64,000 nucleotides of DNA from an uncultured beta proteobacterium (GTDB lineage Bacteria; Pseudomonadota; Gammaproteobacteria; Burkholderiales; SG8-41), in assembly GCA_903905655.1 (NCBI GenBank), contig CAIVHG010000035.1, positions 1 through 64,000 of the forward strand. The letters are read 5' to 3'. The position numbers and the translations under genes were made by a program. The notes under the pieces are model-generated. The model had not been told where the DNA came from and ran no database searches. It saw only the letters and a list, made by a program, of their open reading frames with translations. Shown one piece after another: positions 4,620-28,267 of this stretch (its first letter is position 1; each line of letters opens with the position of its first letter).

Positions 4620-5291
4620 TCAACTCCCAGTGCGGGCAAGCGCGATCGGAGCGTGCTGCGGCGGTGCATCGGCCCCGGATTGGGCGTAGCGATTGATCAG
4701 CATCTGCTTCAGTGTTTCCAGTTGATGCACCAGCAGGCGCACCCGGTTGTTCAGGCTGTTGAGGAACACCATGCCGACCATCGCGATCAACAGGCCGCAG
4801 GCCGTAGCGATCAGCGCCTCCGCCACGCCGCCGGTGACCTGGGTGGGAACCGAGCCCCCCTGTCCGAGGCCGGCGAAGGCGTTGAACATGCCGACGATGG
4901 TGCCGAACAGCCCCAGCAGAGGCGCCAGCGTCACCGCTGTGTCGAGCATCCACATGTAACGGTCGAGCAGCGGGATCTCGTGCATGATCGCTTCCTCCAG
5001 CCGGTCCGCCAGCACCTGCCGGTCATTGATCTCGGGATGTGCAATCGTCACCCCGAGCAGGGCCGCGTGCGGCAGGTGCCCAGCGTGATCGATTTCGGCC
5101 TGCAGCAGGTCGAAGCGCAAACGCGGCAGATCCGCCACCCTTTCATTGACGGCACGACCGCCCGCCATGACGCGATACAGGAACCAGCCGCGCTCCACGA
5201 TCACCGCCAGGGCGACCAGCAACAGCAACGCCATCAGGTAGAGGGTGCCGCCGGACGAAGCCGCGATCACGGACAAGTATTGTAAGCTCAT
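4620..5291 (-). CDS. exbB: MotA/TolQ/ExbB proton channel protein
   Basis: APLLGLFGTIVGMFNAF and GVAEALIATACGLLIAM motifs. Confidence 0.9.
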   Translation of the reverse strand: MSLQYLSVIAASSGGTLYLMALLLLVALAVIVERGWFLYRVMAGGRAVNERVADLPRLRFDLLQAEIDHAGHLPHAALLGVTIAHPEINDRQVLADRLEEAIMHEIPLLDRYMWMLDTAVTLAPLLGLFGTIVGMFNAFAGLGQGGSVPTQVTGGVAEALIATACGLLIAMVGMVFLNSLNNRVRLLVHQLETLKQMLINRYAQSGADAPPQHAPIALARTGS

Positions 5292-5357
5292 GTCATGCCT
5301 CTTGTGCCGTAGCTTGCAGAATAGGCAGGCCGCGCCCGCGGCCCGCCATTGTCAATC

Positions 5358-8622: not shown

Positions 8623-8746
8623 AACGCATCGCCTGCATTGACCGTCGGCCGCGCCCGCTGCTAGCATTTGCCTGGTTCGTGAGATATGCGCAGCGGGGTA
8701 TGCGCCAACTTTGCGCCCGCCTTGGGGAGATCAAGAGCCATCAGCG

Positions 8747-10336: not shown

Positions 10337-10353
10337 CTGAACGAGGTGCCATC

Positions 10354-11538
10354 ATGAATCGCCGCGATCTGCTCAAGTATCTTGCGGGCGCCCCGCTCGC
10401 CGCCTCGGCGCTGCAACTATATGCCGCGCCTGCCGCCAGCACAAAGCTGTTGGTGGTATTCATGCGCGGCGGTTACGACGCGGCCAATTTCCTGGTGCCG
10501 GTTTCCAGCAGCTACTACTACGAAGCGCGTCCCAACATCTCGGTGCCGCGGCCGGGCCAGGGAACGAACGCAGCACTGCCGCTTGACGCGGACTGGGGAT
10601 TGCATCCCGCGCTGCGCGACACGCTATACAAGCTCTATGAAAAAGGCCAGGCCGCGTTCATCCCCTTTGCCGGAACCGACGACCTCTCGCGCAGCCATTT
10701 CGAAACTCAGGACAGCATCGAGCTCGGGCAGGCGCTCGACGGCAGCCGCAATTACGGCTCCGGCTTTCTGAACCGGCTTACCGAAACACTGACCGGTGCC
10801 CGCGCCATCGCGTTTACCGATCAGTTGCCGATCGCCATGCGCGGCGGCGTGCGCGTTCCCAACATGGCTCTGAGATTCGTGGCCCGGCCCGGGGTCGACA
10901 CACAGCGCAGCGCCGTCATTGCATCCATGTACCGCAATACTGCACTCGGCGCGCAGGTCGAGGAAGGCTTCGCCGTGCGCAACGAGGTGATGCAGGATCT
11001 GGCGGCCGAGATGGAAGCGGCGAGCCGCAATGCGATCACAACCCGAGGCTTCGAACTGGAAGCACGCCGCATTGCGAAACTGATGCGCGAGCGATTCAAT
11101 CTCGGGTTCGTGGACGTCGGCGGCTGGGACACGCATGTAGGTGAAGGCGGCGCCAACGGCTACCTCGCGAGCCGTCTGGAAGAACTCGGCCGCGGACTCG
11201 CCGGCTACGCGGATGAGATGGGGCCGGCATGGCGCGACACCATCGTCGTCGTGATCAGCGAATTCGGGCGCACCTTCCGCGAAAACGGCAACCGCGGCAC
11301 CGACCACGGCCACGGCAGTGTCTACTGGGTGCTGGGCGGCGGCATGCGCGGCGGCCGCATCGCGGGAGAACAGCAGCGCATCGCGCAGAAGACGCTGTTC
11401 CAGAACCGCGATTACCCGGTGCTCAATGAATACCGCGCTGTGTTCGGCGGACTGTTTGCGCGGCTCTACGGCCTCGGACCGTCAGAGATCGCGCGCATAT
11501 TCTCAGGCGTACAGGCCAAGGACATCGGCCTGATTTAA
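10354..11538 (+). CDS. DUF1501 family protein
   Basis: MNRRDLLKYLAGAPLAASAL; VVFMRGGYDAANFLVP; VISEFGRTFRENGNRGTDHGHG. Confidence 0.9.
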   Translation: MNRRDLLKYLAGAPLAASALQLYAAPAASTKLLVVFMRGGYDAANFLVPVSSSYYYEARPNISVPRPGQGTNAALPLDADWGLHPALRDTLYKLYEKGQAAFIPFAGTDDLSRSHFETQDSIELGQALDGSRNYGSGFLNRLTETLTGARAIAFTDQLPIAMRGGVRVPNMALRFVARPGVDTQRSAVIASMYRNTALGAQVEEGFAVRNEVMQDLAAEMEAASRNAITTRGFELEARRIAKLMRERFNLGFVDVGGWDTHVGEGGANGYLASRLEELGRGLAGYADEMGPAWRDTIVVVISEFGRTFRENGNRGTDHGHGSVYWVLGGGMRGGRIAGEQQRIAQKTLFQNRDYPVLNEYRAVFGGLFARLYGLGPSEIARIFSGVQAKDIGLI

Positions 11539-11565: not shown

Positions 11566-12198
11566 CTAATTCAGCGCGAGCGGATTCGGCGTGGGGTCGG
11601 CGATCTTGGTGAGCAGGTTGCGATCCCTGTGGTGAAATGGCTCGGACTTGCCGCGGATCATGAGCACCGTGTCCTCGTCATAGGACCAGGTGCCGTCAGG
11701 GTTGATGCTCACCTTGATGCGGAACTCCACCGTCTTGAACGCGTATTCGAGAAACGGCGTGGAGCAGATGCCGTAGCTTTCCGCGCCTTTGGTCGCGACC
11801 AGCTCGAACTCCTTTGAATCCGCGGATGCCGTGCCCACTGCCATCGCGACCTGGGCGCGCGGAATGGTGAGCGTCTGGATGACAGTCCCGGTGGCGGGTT
11901 CCCAAAGCCAGTATCCGACCTGATCGTGGTAGGTCTTGGACTGGCCCGGCTTGACCATGTGCGTGTGATACCTGAGGCCGTAGAACAGCTGCGGCCCATT
12001 GGTCTGCGGATCGATCGGCTGCAGCTCGATGCGCTCGACGAACGCCTGCTTTTTCGGGCCGTCCGCCTTGGGCTTGACGTCGAGGCCGCGCGCCCCCTGC
12101 CAGATGCCCGCCATGCCCGTCAGCGGGCCGAGATTGCGCAGCGTATCGACATCGACGTCCGACGGCTCTGTATAAATATCCTCGGAAAACTCCTCCAT
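11566..12198 (-). CDS. Nitrobindin-like / FABP-type heme-binding beta-barrel protein
   Basis: LGPLTGMAGIWQGARGLD, LFYGLRYHTHM, QTLTIPRAQVAMAVG motifs. Confidence 0.7.
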   Translation of the reverse strand: MEEFSEDIYTEPSDVDVDTLRNLGPLTGMAGIWQGARGLDVKPKADGPKKQAFVERIELQPIDPQTNGPQLFYGLRYHTHMVKPGQSKTYHDQVGYWLWEPATGTVIQTLTIPRAQVAMAVGTASADSKEFELVATKGAESYGICSTPFLEYAFKTVEFRIKVSINPDGTWSYDEDTVLMIRGKSEPFHHRDRNLLTKIADPTPNPLALN

Positions 12199-12347: not shown

Positions 12348-14024
12348 TCAATAGCTTCGACCGTTGTGCGTTTCCCCGTGACAGTTCAGATAGCACTGCC
12401 GGGTCACCGTATTGACGTAGAGCTTCGCGGCGGCACCAGTGCCCACCGGCGTATTGTCGGTGGTGGAAAGATTGATCAGCCGGCTGTTGAAGGTTGCGTT
12501 GCCCTGCGTGCCGCTGATCCCGTGCGGATCATGGCAGGCCTTGCAGCCATAGCGCAGATGTTCAGACCGGTTGTGCGGCGACCCGCTGGTGACGGTCGAT
12601 TGGCGGTGGCACTTGTAGCAGATGTCGCCGGCAGTCGGCGTGCTGTTGGTCGCATACGGCCGTTCCAGCAGCCGCACATTTGTAGATCCGTGCGGGCCGT
12701 TGGGTCCCGTTCCGCCGGCGCCCGGCCCGGCATTGTTGTTGTGGCAGTCTTCGCACTTGACGATGCTCGATATCGTCCACGGTGCGAGCAGGCTCGGCAC
12801 GTTCGCGCTCTTGCCGGGTCCTGCGACCGGATGATACGACGGATTGAGCGTGCTGAATTCGAGCCGCGTATTGCTCTGCGCGATCTGGCGTGCGATGAGC
12901 GGCGCGGGCTGGCCGGGGCTGTCGGCATGGCAGCGAAAGCAGATTTGATACTCTGCAGTGGCGGGATTGATCGCGGCACCATTGATATCGATGCCGCGCA
13001 CTCCGATGAGCGAGCCCGGCAGCGTTCCCGCCGTGGCATTGCTGGCGTGCGGATTGTGACAGTCCACGCACTCGACGTGACGCGACTGCGCCACCGCGGA
13101 TTCGATCGGGTCGTGCACGCCGGTGGTGGCCGCCACCGGATGGATTGAAGATTTAGCGAACTCGCTCTGGACATTTTTCGCCGCTACGTTGCCGTTGTGG
13201 CAAGGGTAGCAGTTGTTTTCCTCGACAGCGGTGTTGAGGTTCCATTTTTTGCCGCCGGCAGCGTGCGGCCGATGACAGCTCTCGCACGCGTTTGCCGAAA
13301 CCGTGGTCCAGCTGGTGTGCGGCCAGGGATTGGTGCCGCTGCCGTTCCAGGTCTTGGTCGACAGCCGGTGGTCGCTCTGACTCCAGTAATTCTTCAGGTG
13401 GCAGGTCTGGCACAGCGCGGACCCCTGATTCGACATCACCAGAAACTTTCCATTGCTATCGTCATGCGGATCGTGGCACGCTGTGCACTGCAGCTGACCT
13501 GCGGCATCGAGCTTCACGCGCCCCGTGAGCAGGGAAGGTGCCGCAAGCTCGCCGCGCGCGGCAGCGAGCGCCGCCGAGTAAGTGATCGACACCGGGTGAT
13601 CGTCCGAAAGATCCGTGCCGATGGCGCTGGCCGAGCCGGTGGGCATAGTCGTCACCCCGCCTGCCATCGCGATCGGCGTGGCGCGATTCAGCACATCGCC
13701 CAGCGCTATGGTGCCGTCGTGGCAGCTCAGGCACAACAGCGAAGCGCCATTGGGCTGACCGGCGTTGCCTTTGGCGGTGGAACTCGTGTACGGAATATAA
13801 GTCGCGCCTGGTGTGCGCCGGTTCCACAGCTGAGCGCTCGGTGCATTGTTATGCGGTGCATGGCAGAACACACAAATCTGCGGTTCCGACGCGCCTTTGA
13901 CAGTCCCCGGTCCGCTCACCGACAAATTATGTTTGCTCGTCGCCAGCAAACCAGCCGCAGCCGCCGGGAAAATCACGCACACTGCAACGACGATGGCGGC
14001 GAGCCACCGCAGCCAGCGACTCAA
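12348..14024 (-). CDS. Multiheme c-type cytochrome (11 CXXCH + 1 CX3CH), doubled-CXXCH type
   Basis: Signal peptide; 11 CXXCH motifs counted plus C-terminal CYLNCH. Confidence 0.9.
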   Translation of the reverse strand: MSRWLRWLAAIVVAVCVIFPAAAAGLLATSKHNLSVSGPGTVKGASEPQICVFCHAPHNNAPSAQLWNRRTPGATYIPYTSSTAKGNAGQPNGASLLCLSCHDGTIALGDVLNRATPIAMAGGVTTMPTGSASAIGTDLSDDHPVSITYSAALAAARGELAAPSLLTGRVKLDAAGQLQCTACHDPHDDSNGKFLVMSNQGSALCQTCHLKNYWSQSDHRLSTKTWNGSGTNPWPHTSWTTVSANACESCHRPHAAGGKKWNLNTAVEENNCYPCHNGNVAAKNVQSEFAKSSIHPVAATTGVHDPIESAVAQSRHVECVDCHNPHASNATAGTLPGSLIGVRGIDINGAAINPATAEYQICFRCHADSPGQPAPLIARQIAQSNTRLEFSTLNPSYHPVAGPGKSANVPSLLAPWTISSIVKCEDCHNNNAGPGAGGTGPNGPHGSTNVRLLERPYATNSTPTAGDICYKCHRQSTVTSGSPHNRSEHLRYGCKACHDPHGISGTQGNATFNSRLINLSTTDNTPVGTGAAAKLYVNTVTRQCYLNCHGETHNGRSY

Positions 14025-15043
14025 GCGTCGCCCCCGATATACCGAAACACCTGGACGCGGCTGTTGTATGAATCGGCAACGTAGATTAAATCGTCGTCGC
14101 CAATGTAGATGCCCGCCGGCAGCCAGAATTCTCCGCGCTCGCGGCCGAGCGCGCCGAATGCGAGAAGCAGCCTGCCTGCAGTGTCGAATATCTGCACCGC
14201 ATTGAACAGCGCATCGACAACGTAGATGTGTCCATAGCGATCGGTGGCCACGCCCTTCTGGCGCAAATGATCCCCGCTGCCGTCGCCCAATTGCCCAAAC
14301 TTTCCCAGATAGCGACCGCCATCGTCGAAGATCTGGACGCGAAAATTCATGGCATCAGTTACATAGAGCTTGCCCTGCGGCGTGCGCCAGATGAGCGTCG
14401 GATAGTTGAATTCACCGTCGCCCGCGCCGCGGCGCCCGAAACTGTACGCGAGTTTTCCATTGCGCTCGAACACCTTGACGTCGTGCGCAGTGGTGTCCAC
14501 CACGTAAATCCGTCCGCTCCTTGCATCGACCGCGATCCCGGTCGGCTGCCTGAGCGGTGCGCTCAGTGCGACGCGGGAAATCACATGTTCGCGCGGCCGC
14601 ATGACCGACACGGTGGCGAGCGCAGAATCCGTGACGTAGACCTCTCCCGCCGCTCCACGTGCGAGCCCCACGGCAGACGGCAGTGCGCCGCTCTCAGGAC
14701 GCAGCAATTCGTAATCGCCATTTGCGGTGTCAAAGCGATGCACGCCTTGTGCGCCCGGGTCTGCTACATAAAGCATTGGCCCGACCGCGAGCACTGCCAT
14801 CGGCCGCACCAGCCGTGAGTCGCTGCCGCCGAACAGCGCGTCCGCGACGCGCTGCAGGAAACCCTTGGTGATACCGAGATCGTCGGGGCGCGCAATCGTC
14901 TCGACGTACGCGATCCGCGGCGCCGCCGGCGCCGCCGGCCACACCAGCGGCACCTTGTCCTCGGCTTTATGCACTGTTGGCGCGCATGCAGCCAGCGCCA
15001 GCAGCATCCAGATCACACAGGCCTTGTGTAGACGAATGCTCAT
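14021..15043 (-). CDS. NHL-repeat (beta-propeller) lipoprotein
   Basis: Lipobox LALAAC; repeated GxIYVVDxxxxxVQIFD-type motifs; 4-nt overlap with the downstream cytochrome gene. Confidence 0.8.
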   Translation of the reverse strand: MSIRLHKACVIWMLLALAACAPTVHKAEDKVPLVWPAAPAAPRIAYVETIARPDDLGITKGFLQRVADALFGGSDSRLVRPMAVLAVGPMLYVADPGAQGVHRFDTANGDYELLRPESGALPSAVGLARGAAGEVYVTDSALATVSVMRPREHVISRVALSAPLRQPTGIAVDARSGRIYVVDTTAHDVKVFERNGKLAYSFGRRGAGDGEFNYPTLIWRTPQGKLYVTDAMNFRVQIFDDGGRYLGKFGQLGDGSGDHLRQKGVATDRYGHIYVVDALFNAVQIFDTAGRLLLAFGALGRERGEFWLPAGIYIGDDDLIYVADSYNSRVQVFRYIGGDA

Positions 15044-15045
15044 GC

Positions 15046-17064
15046 TCAGAATTCTCTGCGGCCAACAAGCTGGATCAGGTTGCGCACGCGCTCGGTGTTG
15101 CCCTGAGTTTCGCGCGAGCGCCCGATATCCAGCGTGAGGCTCGCCTTGCGATAGCGCCATTGGCCCTTGATCGAGGCCGCCATGCGGCTGCGCGGCAACA
15201 CGCCGCCGATGTCCCGTTCGTAGCTCGCATCCGCGGACAGGTCGAGTCCGAACCAGCGCTGCGACCAGTACCTGAAGTCGTACGCGGTGAGATTCACATT
15301 CTGCGTGGAGTTCGCGTAGTCGACCCGGGTGCGGCGCATCCCGACGCGCACGTTGCCGGTGCCGAAGAACGGGTCTTCGCTCTGCACGTAGACGTCGCTT
15401 GCCACGCGCGTATAGGGAGAGATCGCTTCGCGCCGGTCTTCGCTCTCGAAACTGCCACCGACCGAAGATTCGAACGGCGTCTTCAGTGGCATATCCGCCC
15501 GCACCCCATACAGGCTACCGTGCACCGTATTGAGCTGAAACGTGGGACTGCCCGAGGTCAGACGCGGCGTGGACTCAATAAAGCGCAAATACACGCTCAC
15601 GTAGTTGCGCAGGCTCCAGTTGATGTTCAGCGTCTGATCGGACTGTGCATAGGCGTAAGTGCCCCCGACGTCGTAGCTGTAGTCCACCAGCACTTCCTGG
15701 CCGTCGACGATGTTGCCCCCGATCAGCCGCTGCAAGCGCATCTCCAGGCCGACCACGGTGATTGTGTAATCACTGCCTTCCACAAAGGACTGCGTGCGCG
15801 TGTTATTGCTGACGAGCACGCTGCCGCCGACGACATGCTGGTGCGAAAGTGGGGAATACGCGATTCCCGTCAGCGTAACGCGTTCTCCGATCACTGCGGT
15901 CTGGTTTGCCACGGCCTTCTGCTCGCGCAGATCGCGGCGCACGGCGTAGTTCACCTGCACGCTGCCCAGCGGAAGCGCATGCTGGTAGCGCCCCGATGCG
16001 TCGACCCCAGTTGTGCTCGAGGTGTACTGGCTGGTCCGGTTGTTTTCGCCATGCACGCTTACGGTCGCCGTGAGATCCTTGTGCGGCCAGTAGCTTGCGC
16101 CAGCGCTAACGGCATTGACTACAGAGGAAAGTGCTCCCTGATTGCTCGAGTTGTAGTTGTACGTCGCGAAACTCTGCAGCTGTTCCGAGTGCCGGCCGCG
16201 CACATCCAGAAATGCTCTGGCGTCCCGGCGATCGGGCAGTGCGCTCTGCCCAGTCACGTAGCTCTGGGTATTCAATGCGAGAAGATTGACGAGATCGAAT
16301 TGCCGGTTCGCGCCGAACGTGAATCGTGAATCGGCGCTCACGCTCTGCGTCGTGGAGTTGCTCGCCTGGACGGGAAGATTAGGGCTGCCGCTGATCGATG
16401 CCTGCTTCGTGCTCTGATATTGCACCTGAGTCGCACCCAGCGCACCGAACGACCGTGTTGCCTTGAAGTTGAGGCGGTCAAGCATATCGTCGATGATGCG
16501 GTCTACCCCCCGGCCCTGGGAATGCGCACGCGTTGCGTCCACATACACAGGCACCGGCGTCACCGGCCCCAATATTGACATATCAAAACCGTAGCGCGTG
16601 TTCTGCTGCGTGAGGACCTGGCCAGGCGAGACACTCAGGGTAGGATTCAGATGATCGTAGAACACCGATCCTCGATAAGGCTTGTCGCGCAGTATCGTCG
16701 CCCGGCCGGTCAGGTTGTAGAGCGCGCCCTTCGACTGATCGCTACTGGTATCGCTCGCGAAGCTCTGACGCTGCAACACCGGTCCGCCTCCGATGTCGAA
16801 GCTCAGCAGGCTCGGATGGTATGCATAGCTGTGCGTCATCAGAAACAACTCCTGCCGCAGATCCGCCTGCGCCTGGCGCGATCGCACCGGGGTTCCGCCG
16901 GCTGCCGGCTGCCCAGTCACAAACTCGTCACGCAAATAGCGTATCGTCGCGTAACCTTCCATGGCCGTGAAACGAAACGGCACGATGTCCTCGGCACGAC
17001 ATGAATCCGGCGGCGCCATGAGAAGTGCCAAGCCGCCGCAGGCCAGGAGCACCGCTGCTTGCAT
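15046..17064 (-). CDS. Large outer-membrane beta-barrel (porin-cytochrome-type channel candidate)
   Basis: Signal peptide (MQAAVLLACGGLALL), alternating amphipathic strands, C-terminal aromatic ...QLVGRREF; sits between NHL lipoprotein genes. Start uncertain. Confidence 0.65.
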   Translation of the reverse strand: MQAAVLLACGGLALLMAPPDSCRAEDIVPFRFTAMEGYATIRYLRDEFVTGQPAAGGTPVRSRQAQADLRQELFLMTHSYAYHPSLLSFDIGGGPVLQRQSFASDTSSDQSKGALYNLTGRATILRDKPYRGSVFYDHLNPTLSVSPGQVLTQQNTRYGFDMSILGPVTPVPVYVDATRAHSQGRGVDRIIDDMLDRLNFKATRSFGALGATQVQYQSTKQASISGSPNLPVQASNSTTQSVSADSRFTFGANRQFDLVNLLALNTQSYVTGQSALPDRRDARAFLDVRGRHSEQLQSFATYNYNSSNQGALSSVVNAVSAGASYWPHKDLTATVSVHGENNRTSQYTSSTTGVDASGRYQHALPLGSVQVNYAVRRDLREQKAVANQTAVIGERVTLTGIAYSPLSHQHVVGGSVLVSNNTRTQSFVEGSDYTITVVGLEMRLQRLIGGNIVDGQEVLVDYSYDVGGTYAYAQSDQTLNINWSLRNYVSVYLRFIESTPRLTSGSPTFQLNTVHGSLYGVRADMPLKTPFESSVGGSFESEDRREAISPYTRVASDVYVQSEDPFFGTGNVRVGMRRTRVDYANSTQNVNLTAYDFRYWSQRWFGLDLSADASYERDIGGVLPRSRMAASIKGQWRYRKASLTLDIGRSRETQGNTERVRNLIQLVGRREF

Positions 17065-17194
17065 TGCACGGCCGCCTGCTGCGTTGCCTGCAAGCGAACA
17101 GCGCAACCTAGAGGCGTCCAGCGCTCGTTGCTTAATCGCCACGCCGCCGCTCCGCTGTTGCCGGTATCCATCCCCTTCCCCGTCCAATGCATCG

Positions 17195-18340
17195 TCACCG
17201 CGCAGTATTGGTATTGGCCGCCTGTGTGGTCACAGATTTGGCGTCGGGTGGATAGCTCATGCCGTTCATTTTTCCGAATCCGTATACGTCGACCTTGTTC
17301 GGACCAAACTGGCTGACGACGAAAATCAGGTAATCGATGGCAAACCTCGGGTCTGCGTAGCGGCGGAACAGTTCCACATTCTTGTAGTCGATCGAAACGC
17401 CTGCCGGAAGGTTGAGGCCCTCAGCGCCTGCACCGGGCTGACCAAAGTAGAGCAGCAGCCTGCCGTCGTTGTCGAATATCTGCACGTTCTCGAATGCCGA
17501 ATCCCCGACATAAAGACGGCCAGAACGGTCGATCGCAATGCCTTTGGGACGCACGAACTTTCCGACTTCAGCGCCCAGATCTCCGTAGATGCGCACGAGC
17601 TTGCCTTCGGCCGTAAAGCGCTGCACTCTGAAATTGCTGGTATCGACGACGTAGACATCGCCATCCGGGCCGACGGCGATATTGGTGGGATGAAACAGCT
17701 CGCCGCGCTCGGACCCCGCGGTACCGAACTTGAATTGCGGCTTGCCCGTACGCTTGTCGAGCACCACCACCTGATGATGCTTGATGTCGACGACGTAGAG
17801 GCGCTCCCCGGAAATTACCGTGTCCACCGGTTTGAATTCGCCGTCCGCGCCATACGCATACTGGAAGCGATCGCTGCCGTCGTAGACCAGAACCTGGTCG
17901 CGCCCGGTATCCGTCACGTACTTCGTGCCGTCCGCATCGATCCTGACGTTGATCGGCCGCTGCATGCGCCCATTGCCCACTCCCGAAAGCAGCGTGAACC
18001 GATGCTGCACGAAATCGAAAACCGCAAGGCCCGATGCACGGCTGTCAGCCACGTAGAGCTTGCCTTCGTACATGGCCACGCCGTACGGCTGTTTGAGGCG
18101 CTGCACGTTCTGATCATCGCCAAGCACAAACTTTGCGAGGCTGCTATCCGCCGCATTCACGTCGCGGTCGCTCATGATCGTGGTCAGATGCTGGATGCGC
18201 GGCGCATCCGGCAACGCCGGATAAAAAACGGCGCCGGGCGCCGTGACAACCTTCGGCCCCGGTGCCGCGCAAGCTGCAACCAGCGACACCGCGAGCGCAA
18301 TCAGGGCGCGGCGCAAAACTCTACTCTCAAACATCGTCAT
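17195..18340 (-). CDS. NHL-repeat (beta-propeller) lipoprotein
   Basis: Lipobox SLVAAC; repeats such as LYVADSRASGLAVFD, VYVVDTSNFRVQRF, LYVGDSAFENVQIFD; GGAG before ATG at 18340. Confidence 0.8.
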   Translation of the reverse strand: MTMFESRVLRRALIALAVSLVAACAAPGPKVVTAPGAVFYPALPDAPRIQHLTTIMSDRDVNAADSSLAKFVLGDDQNVQRLKQPYGVAMYEGKLYVADSRASGLAVFDFVQHRFTLLSGVGNGRMQRPINVRIDADGTKYVTDTGRDQVLVYDGSDRFQYAYGADGEFKPVDTVISGERLYVVDIKHHQVVVLDKRTGKPQFKFGTAGSERGELFHPTNIAVGPDGDVYVVDTSNFRVQRFTAEGKLVRIYGDLGAEVGKFVRPKGIAIDRSGRLYVGDSAFENVQIFDNDGRLLLYFGQPGAGAEGLNLPAGVSIDYKNVELFRRYADPRFAIDYLIFVVSQFGPNKVDVYGFGKMNGMSYPPDAKSVTTQAANTNTAR

Positions 18341-18545
18341 TAGGTCTCCAGGGGTTATGACACTGGGCGGATGTTCGCTGCACGAACCGTGGGCACCGGT
18401 AAACGCCGCAAAAGCAGCGCACGCCCGCAGGATGAACTCGAAACATCTACCATCGGCGTTCCGATCGGCGCATCGCCACACGCACCTGCGTGCGGCAAGT
18501 AAACGCAGGGCAATGCACCGCTCGCAACTGATCTCTGGAATAGCC

Positions 18546-19199
18546 CTACTTGTTGTGGCAGGCGAGGCAGATGGTGCTTCCGGCCTCCGGCAGCTTCACC
18601 AGGTGACTGGTGCCAGCGGTGAAGGTGTTATGGACGTCGTGACACGACGAACATTCCATCTTGCCGTTGTAGAGCAGGGTTGCGGTTATGGTACCGGTTT
18701 TGGTCTGGCTTCCCGATCCAATGGTCACCGACTTCGTGCTGGGATCGAACAGGGCGCCGTCCGCCGTAGCGAGCGCGGTGTTGTAAGTGAATCCGATCGG
18801 ATGATCATCCGCCAGCGAGGTGCCTATGTTATTTACAGCGGAGATCATCGTAGTGCCCGTATTGCCGCCGAAGCTGTCTATGGCGACCGTGCCGTCGTGG
18901 CAGGACAGGCAAAGCTTCGAAAGTCCGCTCGGCTGCCCCATGGGGCCGGCGTTGAGCGTCGGGCTGCTGTACACCGTATAGGTCTGCGTGGAGTTGGCAT
19001 GACTCCACAACGGCGCATCGGTCACGCTGGTATCGGATTTGTGCGTCACGTGGCAGGCCACGCAGATGCGCCCGCCCGACCAGGCCTTGGTCGTGAAGTC
19101 ATGCTGTGACCCTGTGATCGTGCCTGCGACACAGACACCCGCGCCCAGAAGGAACATCAACCCCGCCAGTACCGCCCATCTCGTAGCTTTCGCTCTCAT
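18546..19199 (-). CDS. Tetraheme c-type cytochrome, doubled-CXXCH type
   Basis: CVACH, CLSCH, CSSCH, CLACH; signal peptide from MRAKATRWAVLAGLMFLLGAG. Confidence 0.85.
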   Translation of the reverse strand: MRAKATRWAVLAGLMFLLGAGVCVAGTITGSQHDFTTKAWSGGRICVACHVTHKSDTSVTDAPLWSHANSTQTYTVYSSPTLNAGPMGQPSGLSKLCLSCHDGTVAIDSFGGNTGTTMISAVNNIGTSLADDHPIGFTYNTALATADGALFDPSTKSVTIGSGSQTKTGTITATLLYNGKMECSSCHDVHNTFTAGTSHLVKLPEAGSTICLACHNK

Positions 19200-19873
19200 T
19201 ATTTTCTCCTCACCATTTCCATTTGCACACCACGCAATACCCTTCTTCAAGGACATTGCTCCACTACTTTTCCACTACGGCCGTATGGTTTTCTTTTTAC
19301 GATCGAGTGTCAACGTGCAAAAGTCACATGCGCCGCGTTATTTTTACAATTCGCTAAATTGTTCGATGAACAGCGTTATGACATTTACATACCCGCAACC
19401 GCATCAACAACGATCATTAATCGCATTGGCGATCGCACATCATCACCGCGAAGCATCGCGCCACGCTTGAATGCAATCACACACACCGCCCCCGCTTCTC
19501 CATACACGACAAATTAGCGCTGCGTAGCCGTTAGATGAATGAGCATCTCATAGCTCGACAATCGGGGTTCCTTTAGCCGCCATCAACAGCCTCGTCGCTC
19601 GACAACAGTTGTAGATTTTCTTCTGTTCATTTCTCGTCAGTCGTGAATTAGTTCCTAACGATCGTGACCTATCTGCATTTAACTTCGACACCAAATGTGG
19701 ATCACCACACTACGGCAGTGATTGAAGTAGCCGCGAACAAGAAGGAAAGACCAGAATGCCAGCCAGCCCGCTCGGGCTTACACTGAGCGCGCTCTGCCCG
19801 CGCATGCGCGTGATGTCTGCAGCCGCTGCAGCGAAAGCATGCAGTCATCGTCATTTCCCTCGGTATCGATGCA

Positions 19874-20764
19874 ATGGATAATCAGGCAACATTGAGATCG
19901 GACTTGCTGCCGGCGGCCATGCCCCCGCAGCTGCGACGCATCGGCATAGCTTTGTTGCGCGGTGCGCTGTGCGCGCTGCTGATGCTGGGCGCAGCAGCAG
20001 GATGGGGGCTGATGCATGGAAAATCGTACAGCCCAGGCTCGGCCGCAGGTTATGCGCTCGGTGTCACCGGCGGATCACTGATGCTAATGCTTCTGCTCTA
20101 TCCGTTGCGCAAACGCCTGCGCTTCATGCACAACTGGGGTCCGCTCAAGCACTGGTTCAAGCTGCACATGGTCGGCGGCATACTTGGGCCCGTGCTCGTG
20201 CTGTTGCATTCCGGCTTTCACGTAGGATCACTCAACGCCGCGGTCGCATTGAGCTGCATGCTGCTGGTCGTCACGAGCGGCATCGTTGGACGTTTTCTGT
20301 ACCGCAAAATTCACCATGGCCTCTACGGCAGCCAGGCGACGCTCAAGCAACTGCATGGCGCTTTGCAAAATGAACTGAAATCGCTGGACCAACAGCTACG
20401 CGAAATGCCGCTCATCAAGAGCGAGATCGATCGCTTTGCCGCACTCGCAGCGCAAGCACCGGCAACCCTGCTCCAGCGTGCGGCTCAATTCCTCGCATTG
20501 GGGCCGATGCGCCGCGGCGTGCGGCGCCGCGTCCGCCGCGAACTCGCCACGCTCAGCGCCGGCTCCGGGACTGCAGCATCTTCGCCCGAAAAGCTCGCGG
20601 CACTCCGCAATGCCGTCGACGCCGTATTGCGCGCGGCACAGCGCAGTGCGCAGTTCAACACTTACGAGCGCCTGTTTTCGCTCTGGCACGTGGTGCACAT
20701 CCCATTTCTATTCATGATGGTGATCACGGCAATCATCCATGTCGTGGCTGTACACGTGTATTAG
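19874..20764 (+). CDS. Polytopic membrane protein, probable b-type cytochrome / ferric-reductase-like
   Basis: TM helices with His pairs: HMVGGILGPVLVLLHSGFH and HVVHIPFLFMMVITAIIHVVAVH. Confidence 0.6.
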   Translation: MDNQATLRSDLLPAAMPPQLRRIGIALLRGALCALLMLGAAAGWGLMHGKSYSPGSAAGYALGVTGGSLMLMLLLYPLRKRLRFMHNWGPLKHWFKLHMVGGILGPVLVLLHSGFHVGSLNAAVALSCMLLVVTSGIVGRFLYRKIHHGLYGSQATLKQLHGALQNELKSLDQQLREMPLIKSEIDRFAALAAQAPATLLQRAAQFLALGPMRRGVRRRVRRELATLSAGSGTAASSPEKLAALRNAVDAVLRAAQRSAQFNTYERLFSLWHVVHIPFLFMMVITAIIHVVAVHVY

Positions 20765-22553
20765 GATCGCGCTGCTGGGTCTGCTCGTCATGGTCGCCGG
20801 CTCCGGCCCTGCGGCCGCGCAGAACCTGGAGACCGCCCTCATGCCGGGTGCGGTGGTCCAGGCCCACGCCAAGCTCGAGACGCAATGCAGGAACTGTCAT
20901 GTGCGCATGGATCGCAATGCGCAGCAGCGCCTGTGCCTGGATTGCCACAAGGAAGTCGCAGGCGATGTGCGGAACAAGGCCGGCTATCACGGCCGGCTGC
21001 AAGAGCGTGAATGCCGGACCTGCCATACCGACCACAAGGGCCGCGACGCGAAGATCGTGCAGCTCGACGACAAGCGCTTCGATCATCTGCTCACGGATTT
21101 CGAGCTGCGCGGTAAGCACACGCGCGCTGCCTGTGCGAGCTGCCATCGCCCGGGGACCAAGCACAGCGCAACGCCCTCCGACTGCGTCTCCTGCCATCGC
21201 AAGGACGACAAGCACAAGGGCGGCTTGGGCGCCAAATGCGAAGACTGCCACAACGCAAATGACTGGAAAAGCACGCGCTTCGACCACGGCAAGACGCGTT
21301 TCCCCCTGCCCCACAAGCATGCCAAGGTCAAATGTGCGGAATGCCATGCCGATCAGCGCTACGCCGACACGCCGCGCGAATGCATCTCCTGCCATCGCAA
21401 GGACGACGCCCACAAGGGACGCTTCAGCAACCGCTGCGAGCGCTGCCACGACGACACGCAATGGAAGACGCCGCTGTTCAGGCACGATACCGACACGCGA
21501 TTTCTCCTGCGCGACCGGCACCGCTCCGTGAAGTGCGAAGCCTGCCATCGCGAGCCGATATACCAGGTCAAGGCGCCGATCAGTTGCTACGCCTGCCACC
21601 GCGGCGATGACGTGCACAAAGCGGCGCTCGGTGAGAAATGCGAAAGCTGCCATACCGAGCGGGGCTGGAAAGAACCGGCACGCTTCGATCACGATCGCGA
21701 CGGCCATTTTGCGCTTCTGGGGAAACACAAGGATGCAAAATGTGAAAGCTGCCATCAGGACCGTAAATTTCGCGACAAGCTTTCTACTGCCTGCTTCCAA
21801 TGCCACAAGGCGGATGACCGCGCAAAGGGGCATAAGGGACGCTACGGCGAAGACTGCAAGACCTGCCACGCCGAGACTTCGTGGAGGGCCACGATCTTCG
21901 TGCACGATCGCGACACCCGGTATGCGCTGCGCGGAAAACACGTACCTGTGAAATGCGATTCCTGTCACCAGGGAGTTCTTTACCGCGACAAGCTCGATGG
22001 CAACTGCGCGTCGTGCCATGCCAAGGATGACAAGCACCGTACGCAACTCGGAGAGCAATGCAGCCGCTGCCACAACGAAAGATCGTGGCGCGAAGCACCC
22101 TTCGATCATGCGCAGTCGCGTTTCCCTCTCACCGGGCGCCACGATGGGCTTGCGTGCAAACAATGCCATCTGACGCCGGCGTTCAAGGACGCGCAGACCG
22201 CGTGCTCCTCCTGTCATGCCAAGGACGATGCGCACAAGGAACGGCTCGGCCCCCGCTGCGAGCAATGCCATAACAGCAGCACCTGGAAGAAATGGGACTT
22301 CGACCACAATCTGCGCAGCCGCTTCAAGCTTGCCGGAAAGCACGCGAACGCCAAGTGCTATGCCTGTCACACGATGCCGGTGAAAGGCGATCTGACGCTG
22401 GCGTCGGATTGCGCAAGTTGCCATGCCAAGGACGACGACGTGCACCTGGGCAGCCTCGGCCTCAAGTGCGAGGAGTGCCATGTGCCCGACAACTGGCGCA
22501 AGCTCATCAATCAAAAGCGCCCGCAGCCGCAGGGCCGGGACATGGCAAAATGA
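20739..22553 (+). CDS. 24-heme periplasmic/secreted cytochrome of tandem tri-heme (c7-like) modules
   Basis: 24 CXXCH motifs counted; seven units each opened by FxH...KH plus an N-terminal tri-heme unit; signal peptide; 26-nt overlap with the upstream gene. Confidence 0.92.
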   Translation: MSWLYTCIRIALLGLLVMVAGSGPAAAQNLETALMPGAVVQAHAKLETQCRNCHVRMDRNAQQRLCLDCHKEVAGDVRNKAGYHGRLQERECRTCHTDHKGRDAKIVQLDDKRFDHLLTDFELRGKHTRAACASCHRPGTKHSATPSDCVSCHRKDDKHKGGLGAKCEDCHNANDWKSTRFDHGKTRFPLPHKHAKVKCAECHADQRYADTPRECISCHRKDDAHKGRFSNRCERCHDDTQWKTPLFRHDTDTRFLLRDRHRSVKCEACHREPIYQVKAPISCYACHRGDDVHKAALGEKCESCHTERGWKEPARFDHDRDGHFALLGKHKDAKCESCHQDRKFRDKLSTACFQCHKADDRAKGHKGRYGEDCKTCHAETSWRATIFVHDRDTRYALRGKHVPVKCDSCHQGVLYRDKLDGNCASCHAKDDKHRTQLGEQCSRCHNERSWREAPFDHAQSRFPLTGRHDGLACKQCHLTPAFKDAQTACSSCHAKDDAHKERLGPRCEQCHNSSTWKKWDFDHNLRSRFKLAGKHANAKCYACHTMPVKGDLTLASDCASCHAKDDDVHLGSLGLKCEECHVPDNWRKLINQKRPQPQGRDMAK

Positions 22554-23848
22554 CTCACTACCCGCTGTGGTCGCTATATGCAGTCCTGCTCACGTTGATA
22601 CTGTGCCTCTATGTGCGGCGCCAGCGGCAGCGCGAAACGCGGTCGAGGTCGGCACTGCAACGGGCCGTGGAAGCAGGACTGACCGAACCGCCGAGCCTGC
22701 ACCCGGTCGTCGATCCCAACCTCTGCATGGGCTCCGGCGCCTGCACCCGGGCGTGTCCTGAAGGAACGCTCGGGATCGTCAATGGCAAGGCTTACCTCAT
22801 CAATCCCACGGTATGCATCGGACACGCTGCATGCGCCGCAGCCTGCCCGGTCGAAGCGATCAAGCTCGTGTTCGGCAGCGCGCGCCGGGGCATCGATATT
22901 CCCTACGTGAAGCCGAGCTTCGAGACTAACGTTCCAGGAATTTATATCGCAGGAGAACTGGGCGGGATGGGGCTGATACGCAAGGCCGCCGAGCAAGGCC
23001 GGCAGGCGATGGAATCGATTTCGAAAAACCGCGCTCACCGCCAGGAACTCGATGTGGTCATCGTGGGCGCCGGTCCCGCCGGAATTTCCGCAACCCTGGC
23101 GGCGATGGAACGCGAGTTGCGCTTCGTCACCATCGAGCAGGAAGCCTCGCTCGGAGGCACGGTCTACCACTATCCGCGCAACAAGATCGTCATGACCCAG
23201 CCGATCACGCTGCCCATCGTCGGCAAAGCGAAGCTTGGCGAGATCTCCAAGGAGTCGCTGCTCGAATTCTGGCAGGGCATCGTGGACCGCACGCGCATGC
23301 CGATCCACTACGGCGAGCGCCTGGTGAAGGTCGGGACCGCCGACGGCGGCTTTGTGGTCAACACCGGCGGCAATGAGTACCGCTGCCGCTCGATCCTGCT
23401 CGCCATCGGGCGGCGCGGCACGCCGCGCAAGCTCGATGTCCCCGGAGAAGAGCTGTCAAAGGTCGTCTATCGGATGGTCGATCCAGAACAGTATCAGGGC
23501 AAGCGGGTGCTGGTCGTGGGCGGCGGCGACAGCGCGATCGAAGCGGCCGTCGCCATCGCAGGCGAAGCCGGATCGCATGTGACGCTGTCGTACCGCGGCG
23601 CCGCCTTCAACCGCGTGAAGCAGCAAAATCGCGAGCGCATGGCTGCGGCACAACAGTCGGGGCGCCTGCAGCTCGCATACAACTCGACGGTCAAACGCAT
23701 CGAGGAAAAACGTGCTCTGCTCGAGCACGATGGACGGTCACTGGCTTTGGACAACGATAGCGTCATCGTGTGCGCCGGCGGCGTGCTGCCGACGCCGATG
23801 CTGAAGGAAATGGGCATCATGGTGGAAACCAAATACGGCACTGCATGA
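22550..23848 (+). CDS. Membrane-anchored ferredoxin-domain / FAD-NAD(P)H oxidoreductase
   Basis: N-terminal TM helix; two degenerate ferredoxin motifs; VVIVGAGPAGISA (FAD) and VLVVGGGDSAIEAA (NAD(P)H). ATGA overlap with the 24-heme gene. Confidence 0.85.
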   Translation: MTHYPLWSLYAVLLTLILCLYVRRQRQRETRSRSALQRAVEAGLTEPPSLHPVVDPNLCMGSGACTRACPEGTLGIVNGKAYLINPTVCIGHAACAAACPVEAIKLVFGSARRGIDIPYVKPSFETNVPGIYIAGELGGMGLIRKAAEQGRQAMESISKNRAHRQELDVVIVGAGPAGISATLAAMERELRFVTIEQEASLGGTVYHYPRNKIVMTQPITLPIVGKAKLGEISKESLLEFWQGIVDRTRMPIHYGERLVKVGTADGGFVVNTGGNEYRCRSILLAIGRRGTPRKLDVPGEELSKVVYRMVDPEQYQGKRVLVVGGGDSAIEAAVAIAGEAGSHVTLSYRGAAFNRVKQQNRERMAAAQQSGRLQLAYNSTVKRIEEKRALLEHDGRSLALDNDSVIVCAGGVLPTPMLKEMGIMVETKYGTA

Positions 23849-23907: not shown

Positions 23908-24867
23908 TTATGCGTGGATGCTGGCTGCCTTCAGCAAAGCTCCCCACTTTTCCGATTCCGATTTGATATGCGCGCTGAATTCCCTGGGGGTAGTGCCGAG
24001 CGCACGCTTGCCTTCTGCCGCCAAACGCTCCCCGAGCACCGGGGCGCGCACCACTTTCACCGCGTCATCGTGCAGTTTGCTTATGACGGCTCCCGGCGTG
24101 CCGCTTGGCGCCAGCAGCCCATACCAGGTTTCGGCTTCAAAGCCGGGAAACCCAGACTCCGCGATCGCAGGAACGTCCGGCATGATGTGCAGCCGCACCG
24201 GGCTCGTCACGGCCAGAGCGCGCAGTTTTCCGCTGCGCACATGCGGGGCCGCCGCGAGCAGATTGTTGAAGAACATGTCGACTTGTCCGCCGATCAGATC
24301 CGTGAGCGCCTGAGCGCTGCCCTGATAAGGCACGTGCATGATCTGAACCCGGGCACGTGCTTTGAAAAGTTCCGCGGCGAGGTGCGACGTCGTGCCGATG
24401 CCGGTGGAAGCGTAATTGAGCGCCCCCGGCCTGGCACTCGCCAGCGCAACCAGTTCGCGCACCGACTTTGCCGGCAGCGCCGGAGGTACGACGAGTATGT
24501 TGGGCACCGCGGCCAATAACGTGACCGGCGCGAAATCGCGCTGCGGCGCATAGGGCGTATTGCGAACCAGGTACGGCGTGACGGTCAGCAGTGCGCCCGA
24601 GGTGATCAGCAGCGTGTAGCCATCGGGAATCGCCTTTGCCGCCATTGCAGCTCCAGTAATCCCGTTTCCCCCGGCGCGATTGTCGATGACCAACGGCTTG
24701 CCCAGGCTTTCGCTAAGCGCAGGGCCCATGAGGCGCGCGAGGATGTCGACCCCGGATCCCGGCGGGAATGGAACGATGACGCGAATGGGCTTTGACGGAT
24801 AGGTCTGCGCGGAAACAGCAAATGCACAGAGCAATAGCGCGCTCAGGAAAACGCGATGCTCAGGCAT
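23908..24867 (-). CDS. Tripartite tricarboxylate transporter substrate-binding (Bug/TctC) protein
   Basis: YPSKPIRVIVPFPPGSGVDILAR, VIDNRAGGNGITGA, VPYQGSAQALTDLIGGQVDMFF. Confidence 0.9.
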   Translation of the reverse strand: MPEHRVFLSALLLCAFAVSAQTYPSKPIRVIVPFPPGSGVDILARLMGPALSESLGKPLVIDNRAGGNGITGAAMAAKAIPDGYTLLITSGALLTVTPYLVRNTPYAPQRDFAPVTLLAAVPNILVVPPALPAKSVRELVALASARPGALNYASTGIGTTSHLAAELFKARARVQIMHVPYQGSAQALTDLIGGQVDMFFNNLLAAAPHVRSGKLRALAVTSPVRLHIMPDVPAIAESGFPGFEAETWYGLLAPSGTPGAVISKLHDDAVKVVRAPVLGERLAAEGKRALGTTPREFSAHIKSESEKWGALLKAASIHA

Positions 24868-25654
24868 TCTCGAGCCTGAAAACGATCGGAACAATGACCC
24901 AGGATTCGACTGTGTCGTTGCCGCGCCGTGCCGGGACAAACCTCCAGCTCTTTACCGTGTCCAGCGCCGCCTGGTCGAGCGCCGCTGAGCCACTGCTCTG
25001 ATCGAGTTGCACGCGCCCTGCGTATCCGTCAAGCGTGACCAGCACTCTCACCCTGACCGTGCCCTGCTCTCCATTGCGCCGCGCGATAAACGGGTACTGA
25101 GGAGGCGTGTTGCGCAAATAGGCGGCGTTGAAGTTCGGCGCGGTCGTTGCGCCAGTGTCACGGACCGCGGTTGCGGGCGCCGCGCTGCGCGCCGCGATTT
25201 CAGCCTTGTCCTCGGCCGGCTTGGCGTCGGCATTCTTCTGCGGCACGCTGAACGCCGCAGCGGGAGGCGCTGCTTCAGCAGCCAATGCGATCACGGGCTT
25301 GGGCGGTGAAGTCTCAGTTTGCACCCGCGCGGCTTCGGCAAGCACTTGCGGCTGCGTGCGCTCGGTCCGCATTTTCGATTCGGGCGGCCGGCGCTGTGCC
25401 CGCACGAGGGGCAGCGGCTCGGGCGGCTGCGCGAGCACGACGTCCAGAGCGGAAGACGCCGCATCCGCATCCAAACCCGCAGGAGGAGGCAGCAGCGCCA
25501 GCGCCGCCGCGTGCAGCACGATGCTCAGGGCCAGCAAGCGCGCGAGCAACGCATTGCCGCGCCAAAACGGAGCGCGCATCGCTCCAGCCGCGGCATCTGC
25601 ACTGTGGACATCCTGCATGACGAAACTCATCCGTTCGCAACCCGTAATGCACAA
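24860..25654 (-). CDS. TonB-family energy transducer
   Basis: C-terminal YPFIARRNGEQGTVRVRVLVTLDGYAGRVQLDQSSGSAALDQAALDTVKSWRFVPAR. Start uncertain. Confidence 0.85.
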   Translation of the reverse strand: MCITGCERMSFVMQDVHSADAAAGAMRAPFWRGNALLARLLALSIVLHAAALALLPPPAGLDADAASSALDVVLAQPPEPLPLVRAQRRPPESKMRTERTQPQVLAEAARVQTETSPPKPVIALAAEAAPPAAAFSVPQKNADAKPAEDKAEIAARSAAPATAVRDTGATTAPNFNAAYLRNTPPQYPFIARRNGEQGTVRVRVLVTLDGYAGRVQLDQSSGSAALDQAALDTVKSWRFVPARRGNDTVESWVIVPIVFRLENA

Positions 25655-25782
25655 ACGCTATCGGGGCATCGTGCACCGGGGCACGCGCCGCGCATATTTA
25701 GACTACCATGAATCACGGCCAGCGTTTCCCTGTGCGCGGCGCAGCCTCGCGCTGGCCGTGGAAGCCATTCGATGCGCATCGC

Positions 25783-28107
25783 CTAATAATTGAACCTGAG
25801 TTCCGCCAGCGCGGTGCGCTGCGGGAACGGATGGAAGACAAAGTATTTGCGATTGTTCAGGTTGTCCACGCCCAGCGCCGCGCTCCACTGCCGGTCGATC
25901 TGATAGCGCGCGCGCAGGTCCACGACGAAATAGGCGTCGAAGCCCTGATAGGTATGCGTATAAAAGTCAGAATTGTCGGCGGTCGCATAGGCGCGGTCGC
26001 TGTAGCGCGCAGCGAGCGTGACCGCAGCCTTGGCGTTCGGGCGAAAGGTGGCGACCAGGGTCGCGCGCCAGCTCGGCACCTGCGGCGTTTGCTTGCCGAC
26101 GGCTGCGGCGAAAGCGGAGTCTGCGGTGATGCGTGAATGGACGTACACCACGCTGCCCGAGAGATCGAGGCCTTCCACAAATACATCCGCGCCTTGAGCG
26201 ACGAGTTCGAGGCCCCGTGAGCGCACGCTGTCGATGTTCTGGACGTAGCTGAAGAGCGTGGCCGAGCCTGCAACCAGAGGCGCGGTCTGCGAGATCAGCG
26301 CGTCGGCGATGCGTTCCTCAAAATACGAAGCGCGCACCCGACCTCCTTGCCACGCCCGTTCCGCCGAGAGCTCGCCTGACCAGGCGCGTTCCGGCCTGAG
26401 ATTCGGATTGGGTATGCTGAGCGTCGCGCCAGTGGTGATCGCCTGGTAAAGCTCGGTCACCGTTGGGAATCGATAGGCCTTGCCGAGCGACGCGGTGAGC
26501 AGCCATTGTGCCGATGCTTCAAATGCAAGCGAAGCCTTGGGTGAAAAATGCGACGCATCGAGACCCGGCTGCGCAACGGACAAAGCGGGCGCCAGGGAGT
26601 AATTCTGACCGTCAAACGCGCGCCAGTGCTCATAGCGACCGCCGAGCGTCGCTTTGAACGCCGGCGCAAGCCGCCACACGTCCTGCATCCACAACGCCTC
26701 GGTCTGAGACTTGCCGCGTGCATCTGCGGCGAGCTGCTCGCCACCGTTGTCGATCCAGTTCGCGGTGTTGTATTTGGGATTGACGAGCTTGTAGTAGTCG
26801 TGATGCACGCCGAAGCTCAGCTGATGCGCCCCGCTCACGCCGCGGGGACGCCAGATGCCCTTGAGGTCCACGGCTCGCCACCCGGTGCCGTCCATCGATG
26901 AGAGCGTGCCAGCGCCGCCCGCCAGCGCTGCAGGCAGCGCGGCCGTCGGCGTGCGCGTCGTCTCCGTGCCATAGCGATAAAGGCTGGCGACCGCCTCCCA
27001 ATCCCACGTGCCGCGCGTGTCGGAGCGCAGCGCCAGGCTGTGCATCCAGTGCTGCTCCTCAGTCCGGTAGACATTGTTGGAGAACGCGCTCGCCGGCACG
27101 GAATAGTTATAGCCGCCGATATTGAGACTGCCCGAGTACATCAGGTTGCCCGCCGCATCCCTCAGGTAGGTCTGCGCCGTTGCCCGGTCGTCGTTCTGGA
27201 AGAACCCGATGGTGTACGCCGCGTGCAGCGTGGGCGTTACCTCGTAACCGAGCTTTAACTTGAAGTTGTCCTGCAGCTGACGTTCGATGCCGCCGGCCCC
27301 GAGCACTGCGATCGGCGCGCCGCTGCGGTTGGCATCGGCAAAAGCTCCGGTGACGGGAGTGCCGACGGCGCTGGGTGCTGCTACCCGGGCAGCGGTCACA
27401 TATGCGAGCGGCTGTCCATAGCTGTCCAGGTGATTTGCGCTCAACCACCAGGAAAAATTGCCGGACCGGTTGCCGAGCAGCGCGCTCGCCTGCCGCGCTG
27501 GATAAGTGTCGCTGGTGCCGTACTGGGAAAAGCTTTGCCATGCGCTCTGCACTTTCACGGCGGCCTCGAAGCGGCGCGGCATGCGGGTGGTGATCTCGGC
27601 TACGGCGCCGATGGAGTTGCCGGGATACGCCGCGGCGAACGGCCCGTACATCACGTCGATGCGCTCAATCTCCTCAGGCGCCACCATGCCCCAGCGCGGC
27701 GAGGCTGTGGAGTTGTTGTTCCCGATCAAAGCAGAGAGCGGAACGCCATCGGCGTAGATCAGGCCGCGCGCACTGGAGCCCACCCCCGAGGTGCGGGTGG
27801 TCATCGGCGCCTGCGTATCCCCGATGTGCCGCTTACGTATCAGCACATTCGGCAGGTACTTGAGCGCATCTTCGGTGTTCACCGCATTCACCTGCTCTGA
27901 GATTTGACTTGCCGTCACGCTCTCGGTGACGAGCGGCAGCTGATGCCTTTCCGAGATGCTGGGCGTTTCTGTTACCGTCACCGCGGGCAATGCCGCGTCC
28001 GTACTTTGCGCGATCGCGGCCGAAGCCGCGCACGCAATGCTCAGCGCCGCCGTGCAAAGAAGCAGGCGGCTGCCGCACACACTTGAGGTCATCTTTCCAC
28101 TCCACAT
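25783..28107 (-). CDS. TonB-dependent receptor
   Basis: Signal peptide, plug domain (VNTEDALKYLPNVLIRKR), barrel, C-terminal ...RTALAELRFNY. Start uncertain. Confidence 0.88.
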   Translation of the reverse strand: MWSGKMTSSVCGSRLLLCTAALSIACAASAAIAQSTDAALPAVTVTETPSISERHQLPLVTESVTASQISEQVNAVNTEDALKYLPNVLIRKRHIGDTQAPMTTRTSGVGSSARGLIYADGVPLSALIGNNNSTASPRWGMVAPEEIERIDVMYGPFAAAYPGNSIGAVAEITTRMPRRFEAAVKVQSAWQSFSQYGTSDTYPARQASALLGNRSGNFSWWLSANHLDSYGQPLAYVTAARVAAPSAVGTPVTGAFADANRSGAPIAVLGAGGIERQLQDNFKLKLGYEVTPTLHAAYTIGFFQNDDRATAQTYLRDAAGNLMYSGSLNIGGYNYSVPASAFSNNVYRTEEQHWMHSLALRSDTRGTWDWEAVASLYRYGTETTRTPTAALPAALAGGAGTLSSMDGTGWRAVDLKGIWRPRGVSGAHQLSFGVHHDYYKLVNPKYNTANWIDNGGEQLAADARGKSQTEALWMQDVWRLAPAFKATLGGRYEHWRAFDGQNYSLAPALSVAQPGLDASHFSPKASLAFEASAQWLLTASLGKAYRFPTVTELYQAITTGATLSIPNPNLRPERAWSGELSAERAWQGGRVRASYFEERIADALISQTAPLVAGSATLFSYVQNIDSVRSRGLELVAQGADVFVEGLDLSGSVVYVHSRITADSAFAAAVGKQTPQVPSWRATLVATFRPNAKAAVTLAARYSDRAYATADNSDFYTHTYQGFDAYFVVDLRARYQIDRQWSAALGVDNLNNRKYFVFHPFPQRTALAELRFNY

Positions 28108-28267
28108 TGTCTTGATCTGCGCCGATGGCTCGTCGACGCCAATACTTTGATCCATGCCGCGGGATCCGCTGCGCACGGAGAGCGCACAGCGAAACGCAGT
28201 GCAAGAAGGCGACACGCACAAACGCGCTGCGCACCGAATGCGCAGCACCGCGTGTCGCGAAGCAAAG

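Follow-up and report, generated by a model that had tools for sequence, protein, structure and literature searches.

The locus analysed here, positions 12348–23848 of a 64-kb stretch of betaproteobacterial DNA (the window), raises the question of whether two divergent operons rich in multiheme cytochromes form a single path for electrons across the cell envelope and, if so, of what kind. A sequence-only reading had described a trans-envelope conduit at this place, and its eight genes, arranged in two divergent operons, with their heme counts and overlaps, were all recovered from open reading frames (ORFs) and counts of CXXCH motifs. These tallies gave 4 motifs (18546–19199, minus strand), 11 plus one CX3CH (12348–14024, minus strand), and 24 (20739–22553, plus strand), and neighbouring genes overlap or abut at 14021–14024, 15043/15046, 20739–20764, and 22550–22553. 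Our analysis makes it probable that the block is one trans-envelope conduit, a hybrid of two known halves: an inner half of the PCC3 type and an outer nanowire module resembling the undecaheme electron transfer (Uet) pathway. Of the first proposal, a candidate conduit formed jointly by two associated operons is supported; the proposal had overlooked the relationship of the 4-heme protein to OmcE, a nanowire subunit of Geobacter. The features of the locus are the following:

12348–14024, minus strand: 11+1-heme (12-heme) cytochrome, UetJ-like, candidate filament base, with OmcE-like N-terminal 200 residues
14021–15043, minus strand: NHL beta-propeller lipoprotein 2 (Pfam NHL; lipobox LAAC)
15046–17064, minus strand: predicted outer-membrane beta barrel, Uet-type (AlphaFold2 model; best PDB match MtrB)
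17195–18343, minus strand: NHL beta-propeller lipoprotein 1 (Pfam NHL; lipobox VAAC)
18546–19199, minus strand: OmcE-like tetraheme cytochrome, candidate nanowire subunit (OmcE homology; four CXXCH and four distal His)
19257–19873, no strand: divergent intergenic region, no shared operator found
19874–20764, plus strand: PCC3-type inner-membrane protein, likely di-heme b (two WX3HX13H and SGXXG motifs)
20739–22553, plus strand: 24-heme periplasmic cytochrome, PCC3 type (24 CXXCH; homologs follow the membrane-protein gene in PCC3 loci)
22550–23848, plus strand: membrane-anchored ferredoxin/FAD/NAD(P)-binding protein (Pfam Pyr_redox_3, Fer4_10)

The ORF of the 4-heme protein reaches 19256, and the ATG at 19199, with GGAG upstream, was taken as its start; that of the barrel reaches 17187, with M42 as the likely start. 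Pfam matches were obtained for NHL repeats, for paired-CXXCH and cytochrome c7 repeats, and for ferredoxin and pyridine-nucleotide oxidoreductase domains, and no Pfam family matched the barrel or the membrane protein. The search of the intergenic region for a shared operator yielded a single FNR-like site, at one locus only.

In the proposed conduit, the ferredoxin/FAD protein, cytoplasmic and anchored in the membrane, would trade electrons with NAD(P)H, or a carrier like it, on one side and with the di-heme-b membrane protein on the other; the latter may use quinol as well. The 24-heme cytochrome would take the electrons across the periplasm. The 12-heme cytochrome, sitting at or in the wide outer-membrane barrel with the two NHL lipoproteins assisting, would link to a filament outside the cell, built from the OmcE-like 4-heme subunit. 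This filament would replace the PCC3 extracellular cytochrome, and the Uet-type barrel would replace the PCC3 porin. The contacts between these parts, the formation of a filament, and the flow of electrons with its direction are what we infer from the findings that follow.

The two operons recur together. A scan with the 4-heme family profile over 85,462 species, one genome per species, was carried out with the 4-heme alignment, the barrel alignment A2 being too divergent, and the best 80 loci were examined. In the top eight of these, the PCC3-type trio lay divergently beside the nanowire genes; it was found beside them in none of the remaining 72, many of which ended at contig boundaries. With the window and G006 added to the eight best-scoring genomes, the hybrid layout was present in ten genomes from Thiobacillaceae, Rhodocyclaceae, Sterolibacteriaceae, and further Betaproteobacteria, although several of these loci end at contig boundaries and all eight genes are not visible in each. 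The genes flanking the block differ among them. The block was present in 3 of 15 genomes of the window's own genus, so its distribution is patchy, and in two Rubrivivax genomes with related 4-heme genes the membrane protein was matched only weakly. In the trees built from the membrane protein, the 24-heme cytochrome, the ferredoxin/FAD protein, and NHL lipoprotein 1, the hybrids formed one clade, and those of the membrane protein and NHL lipoprotein 1, one for each operon, showed an identical branching order for all ten hybrids. The ferredoxin/FAD tree, which does not include L100, departed from this order only inside the window's genus, at branches of modest support. Because of these single clades in four trees and the same branching across operons, the sequences indicate that both operons are inherited as one unit, by vertical descent or by transfer as a unit. 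The gene-neighbourhood check that the sequence-only reading had called for, co-occurrence of both operons in relatives, accordingly came out in its favour.

The rightward operon resembles the inner half of PCC3. The inner-membrane protein of PCC3/PCC4 is recognised by a pair of WX3HX13H motifs together with SGXXG, a signature that has been read as a di-heme-b site (He et al. 2017, PMC5566968); the membrane protein of this operon carries all of these, SGXXG as SGIVG. Both WX3HX13H motifs were present in every relative examined, the four ligand His being invariant in 39 of 39, and the protein is likely a PCC3-type inner-membrane protein with two b hemes. In a survey of 274 genomes of the class, the genes of the 29 best membrane-protein relatives adjoined a homolog of the 24-heme protein of the window, with 21–24 hemes where complete. 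Reading of wider flanks showed that a second cytochrome and a large ORF, presumed to be the porin, usually follow, matching the PCC3 definition, and about 20 of the 29 class loci had a ferredoxin/FAD homolog near the membrane-protein gene. This last protein matched Pyr_redox_3 (E = 2e-43) and Fer4_10 (E = 6e-10), and its N-terminal hydrophobic segment, followed by RRQRQRE, suggests that the ferredoxin/FAD domain is cytoplasmic. No mention of it was found in He et al. (PMC5566968) or in the Sideroxydans CL21 paper, and a ferredoxin-NADP reductase near another porin-cytochrome type was described in 2026 from a cave metagenome (PMC13264449). The overlooked ferredoxin/FAD protein may belong to PCC3 biology.

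Some further features of these genes were observed. In the second ferredoxin motif of the ferredoxin/FAD protein, an invariant His replaces Cys II (CIGH[GA]AC...C, in 27 of 27 sequences, the window and 26 relatives), and in the hybrids the first motif is also without Cys II (Ser/Ala); an unusual Fe-S ligation is possible. Very large cytochromes were found beside PCC3-type genes, with at least 88 CXXCH motifs in L092 (12021–20000, cut), 69 in L083 (656–5770), and 47 in L089 (16501–19965). In the Lac Pavin hybrid L095, a histidine kinase gene (4636–6108, minus strand), a possible regulator, abuts the ferredoxin/FAD gene, and an ORF of similar size occupies this place in L098.

A flow that starts at NAD(P)H or quinol and leaves the cell is one possible direction, and the alternative that survives best concerns this point. 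An inward conduit, through which a lithotroph would feed its quinone pool with electrons drawn from Fe(II), from some other mineral, or from a second cell, leaving the flavoprotein a side role, comes close to an even chance. Most discussion of PCC3 and Uet concerns bacteria that oxidise Fe(II) or a cathode (PMC5566968, PMC10734462, PMC13386937). Matches to the RuBisCO-large family in 6 of the 10 hybrid genomes also fit autotrophy, although this family includes RuBisCO-like proteins. For a flavoprotein that uses NAD(P)H, energetics would favour the outward direction, since electrons from Fe(II) would have to climb in potential and also work against the membrane potential. This direction also agrees with the occurrence of OmcE filaments, in which one heme is ligated by a His from the next subunit, in a metal reducer (PMC12307469).

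The leftward operon is read as an OmcE/Uet-type nanowire module because both its 4-heme protein and the N-terminus of its 12-heme protein are homologous to OmcE. The 4-heme protein matched OmcE (PDB 7TFS) over its full length, with E = 1.4e-21 for the single sequence and E = 1.7e-34 for the family profile, which makes it homologous to this nanowire subunit of Geobacter; it also matched PDB 9YUQ (E = 5e-19), an entry with 16 copies of the chain. Members of the 4-heme family were aligned with OmcE and with the N-terminus of the 12-heme protein (88 rows); every row kept the CXXCH motifs and four distal His, at the positions they have in OmcE. One more His, the fifth (H86, numbered along the ORF), is kept in 85 of the 88 rows and sets the 4-heme family apart from OmcE, which has Arg at this position. 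Residues 11–210 of the 12-heme protein matched OmcE 7TFS with E = 6.1e-30, and this filament-like domain makes the protein a natural candidate for the base of a filament. The "+1" heme site that had been proposed for it is borne out by its twelfth motif, CX3CH, conserved in 53 of 53 homologs, for which reason it is likely a 12-heme cytochrome. By extension, Uet-type clusters, which were seen in about ten phyla or more, may encode nanowire subunits in their tetraheme proteins and filament bases in the 12-heme partners. As a separate observation, many genomes of the class (e.g., G351:C11, G348:C11, G389:C1) have a recurrent frame of 800–960 aa with two 4-heme-like stretches, often about 10 kb from a second frame of 250–300 aa, possibly another OmcE-related system.

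It is also conceivable that no polymer forms and that the 4-heme and 12-heme proteins belong to a porin-cytochrome complex of the ordinary kind, the 4-heme protein being a terminal reductase or oxidase at the surface. This accords with the account of Uet as a porin-cytochrome complex of Tenderiales with an extracellular tetraheme cytochrome (PMC10734462), and H86, present in nearly all family members and missing from OmcE, would also suit it. Against it, the two solved relatives found by sequence are the OmcE filament 7TFS and the 16-chain entry 9YUQ, and the 4-heme family retains all four distal His positions; we regard a non-polymeric complex as unlikely, if well worth keeping in mind.

For the barrel between these cytochromes, AlphaFold2 predicted a single plug-free barrel (pLDDT 86, pTM 0.72) of about 28 long strands, counted on the model, with a conserved non-barrel insert near residues 430–506. 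A wide barrel of this kind agrees with the role it had been given beforehand. The best fold match in the PDB was MtrB (6r2q_B, E = 3.8e-9), with a TM-score of merely 0.41–0.45, which makes it a similarity of kind and does not show homology; the barrel sequence itself had no match in Pfam or the PDB. A phage tail-tube identity for residues 425–511 was dropped, as the match was weak and overlapped the non-barrel insert, and a sequence-based count of beta strands was discarded, since it could not tell known barrels apart from shuffled sequence.

The hybrids appear to have exchanged the outer half of PCC3 for this nanowire module. Neither the window cluster nor the neighbourhood of the trio in the hybrids contained a PCC3 extracellular multiheme cytochrome, and a search with profile A3, built from eight PCC3 porins, found no PCC3 porin in 9 of the 10 hybrid genomes, including G000, G002, and G006. 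The remaining hybrid, G521 (the L100 genome), gave a hit with E = 9e-114, which is independent of the profile and shows the sensitivity of the search; three control genomes reached E ≤ 3e-264, yet are themselves members of the profile. G521 also holds two additional copies of the membrane protein. Matches with E of 1e-4 to 1e-6 in hybrids were not counted, as they cover profile positions 197–308 only, probably a TPR-like stretch such as Pfam sees in one PCC3 porin.

These absences bear on the reading of the operons as two independent systems sharing only a divergent promoter region, in which general periplasmic cytochromes would supply the nanowire module, and the inner-membrane and 24-heme proteins would serve, e.g., electron storage or a periplasmic reductase. 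Each half does occur alone, as stand-alone nanowire clusters and as PCC3 loci with their own porin. Against this, the PCC3 half of the hybrids has no adjacent outer cytochrome and porin, with the porin missing altogether from nine genomes, and both halves form matching single clades. In addition, stand-alone nanowire clusters of other Gammaproteobacteria adjoin 7/8-heme cytochromes and a membrane protein of the cytochrome b561 type, which hints at an inner partner for every nanowire module, and we consider two independent systems improbable. A chance neighbourhood was dropped, given the hybrid clades in the trees and the same divergent layout in nine other genomes with different flanks.

Several points weigh against a hybrid conduit ending in a nanowire. 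Homology to OmcE alone would not prove that the 4-heme protein polymerises, and what cytochrome filaments do physiologically is itself under dispute (PMC11077965). The AlphaFold model of the 12-heme protein had a pLDDT of 41, and its seat in the barrel is putative. Congruent trees would be equally expected from the descent of two linked, independent systems, and the case for missing PCC3 parts depends chiefly on the congener G002 and on the remaining relatives, because the assembly of the window genome (2.55 Mb) is 69.7% complete. Finally, the support for every member of the block comes from sequence and models.

The hybrid conduit can be put in a more specific form, in which an OmcE-type nanowire would be charged directly from the inner membrane by one inherited unit, the N-terminal domain of the 12-heme protein nucleating or plugging into the filament at the barrel. 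We hold this to be possible rather than probable and offer it tentatively; if true, a directly charged nanowire with a 12-heme base would answer how a cytochrome nanowire attaches to the cell. To our knowledge, the link of cytochrome nanowires to the respiratory chain is an open question, and since the eight-gene unit holds an OmcE-type subunit together with a full candidate path to the cytoplasm, this link could be tested on a single cluster.

Around the block, the window encodes a THAP4/nitrobindin-like heme-binding protein just past its left end (11566–12198, minus strand), with no counterpart identified beside the clusters of relatives, a DUF1800/DUF1501 gene pair (8711–11538, plus strand), and genes for a TctC-type receptor, TonB, and a TonB-dependent receptor (23908–28248, minus strand).

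As to known systems, the sequence-only reading had not recognised this exact eight-gene arrangement as a named one and had listed a match to a characterised pathway with another function as a refuting outcome. No such match was found in the open-access literature, but the two halves of the block resemble PCC3 and Uet, both named systems that are functionally unproven, and the OmcE-like domain of the 12-heme protein had been missed. In the available open-access text we likewise found no single combined PCC3/Uet cluster and no statement of UetA as an OmcE homolog; PCC3 and UetJ have been reported in the same genomes (PMC13386937). With PCC3 (PMC5566968; Hoover et al. 2023, PMC10734462), the cluster shares an inner-membrane protein (about 300 aa) that has SGXXG and a pair of WX3HX13H motifs, a periplasmic cytochrome whose 24 hemes fall within the about 21–27 of PCC3, and a nearby ferredoxin/FAD gene, as in most PCC3-type loci examined; in contrast, it is without the PCC3 extracellular cytochrome or porin and is joined to a nanowire module instead. 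With Uet, as described for Tenderiales in PMC10734462, it shares by gene type the tetraheme UetA-like and undeca/dodecaheme UetJ-like cytochromes, a UetC-like barrel, and two NHL proteins (UetHI), whereas it lacks the triheme UetDEG and the UetB isomerase and has a PCC3-type inner half. Triheme cytochromes were found in other loci of the class (e.g., L073, L077, L079).

With Geobacter OmcE (7TFS), the common traits are the full-length homology of the 4-heme subunit, including four CXXCH and four distal His, and the homologous N-terminal domain of the 12-heme protein; the differences are the fifth conserved His, a betaproteobacterial host, and a polymerisation that is putative here. MtrCAB (PDB 6R2Q) offers the nearest solved fold of a wide plug-free barrel and the same plan of cytochromes plus barrel, but the barrels have no detectable sequence relation, an MtrA-type decaheme is missing, and a putative filament stands in place of MtrC; membership in this family was dropped, as the best TIGR03508 score across all cytochromes was 50.7 bits against a cut-off of 192.2. 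Finally, the stand-alone clusters of OmcE-like, NHL, barrel, NHL, and 12-heme genes (L067–L072, L104, L112, and others, in many phyla) have the same five-gene outer module, whereas the full inner module next door, where seen, is of the b561 type with 7/8-heme cytochromes and not the PCC3 trio, which points to one outer module combined with different inner modules.

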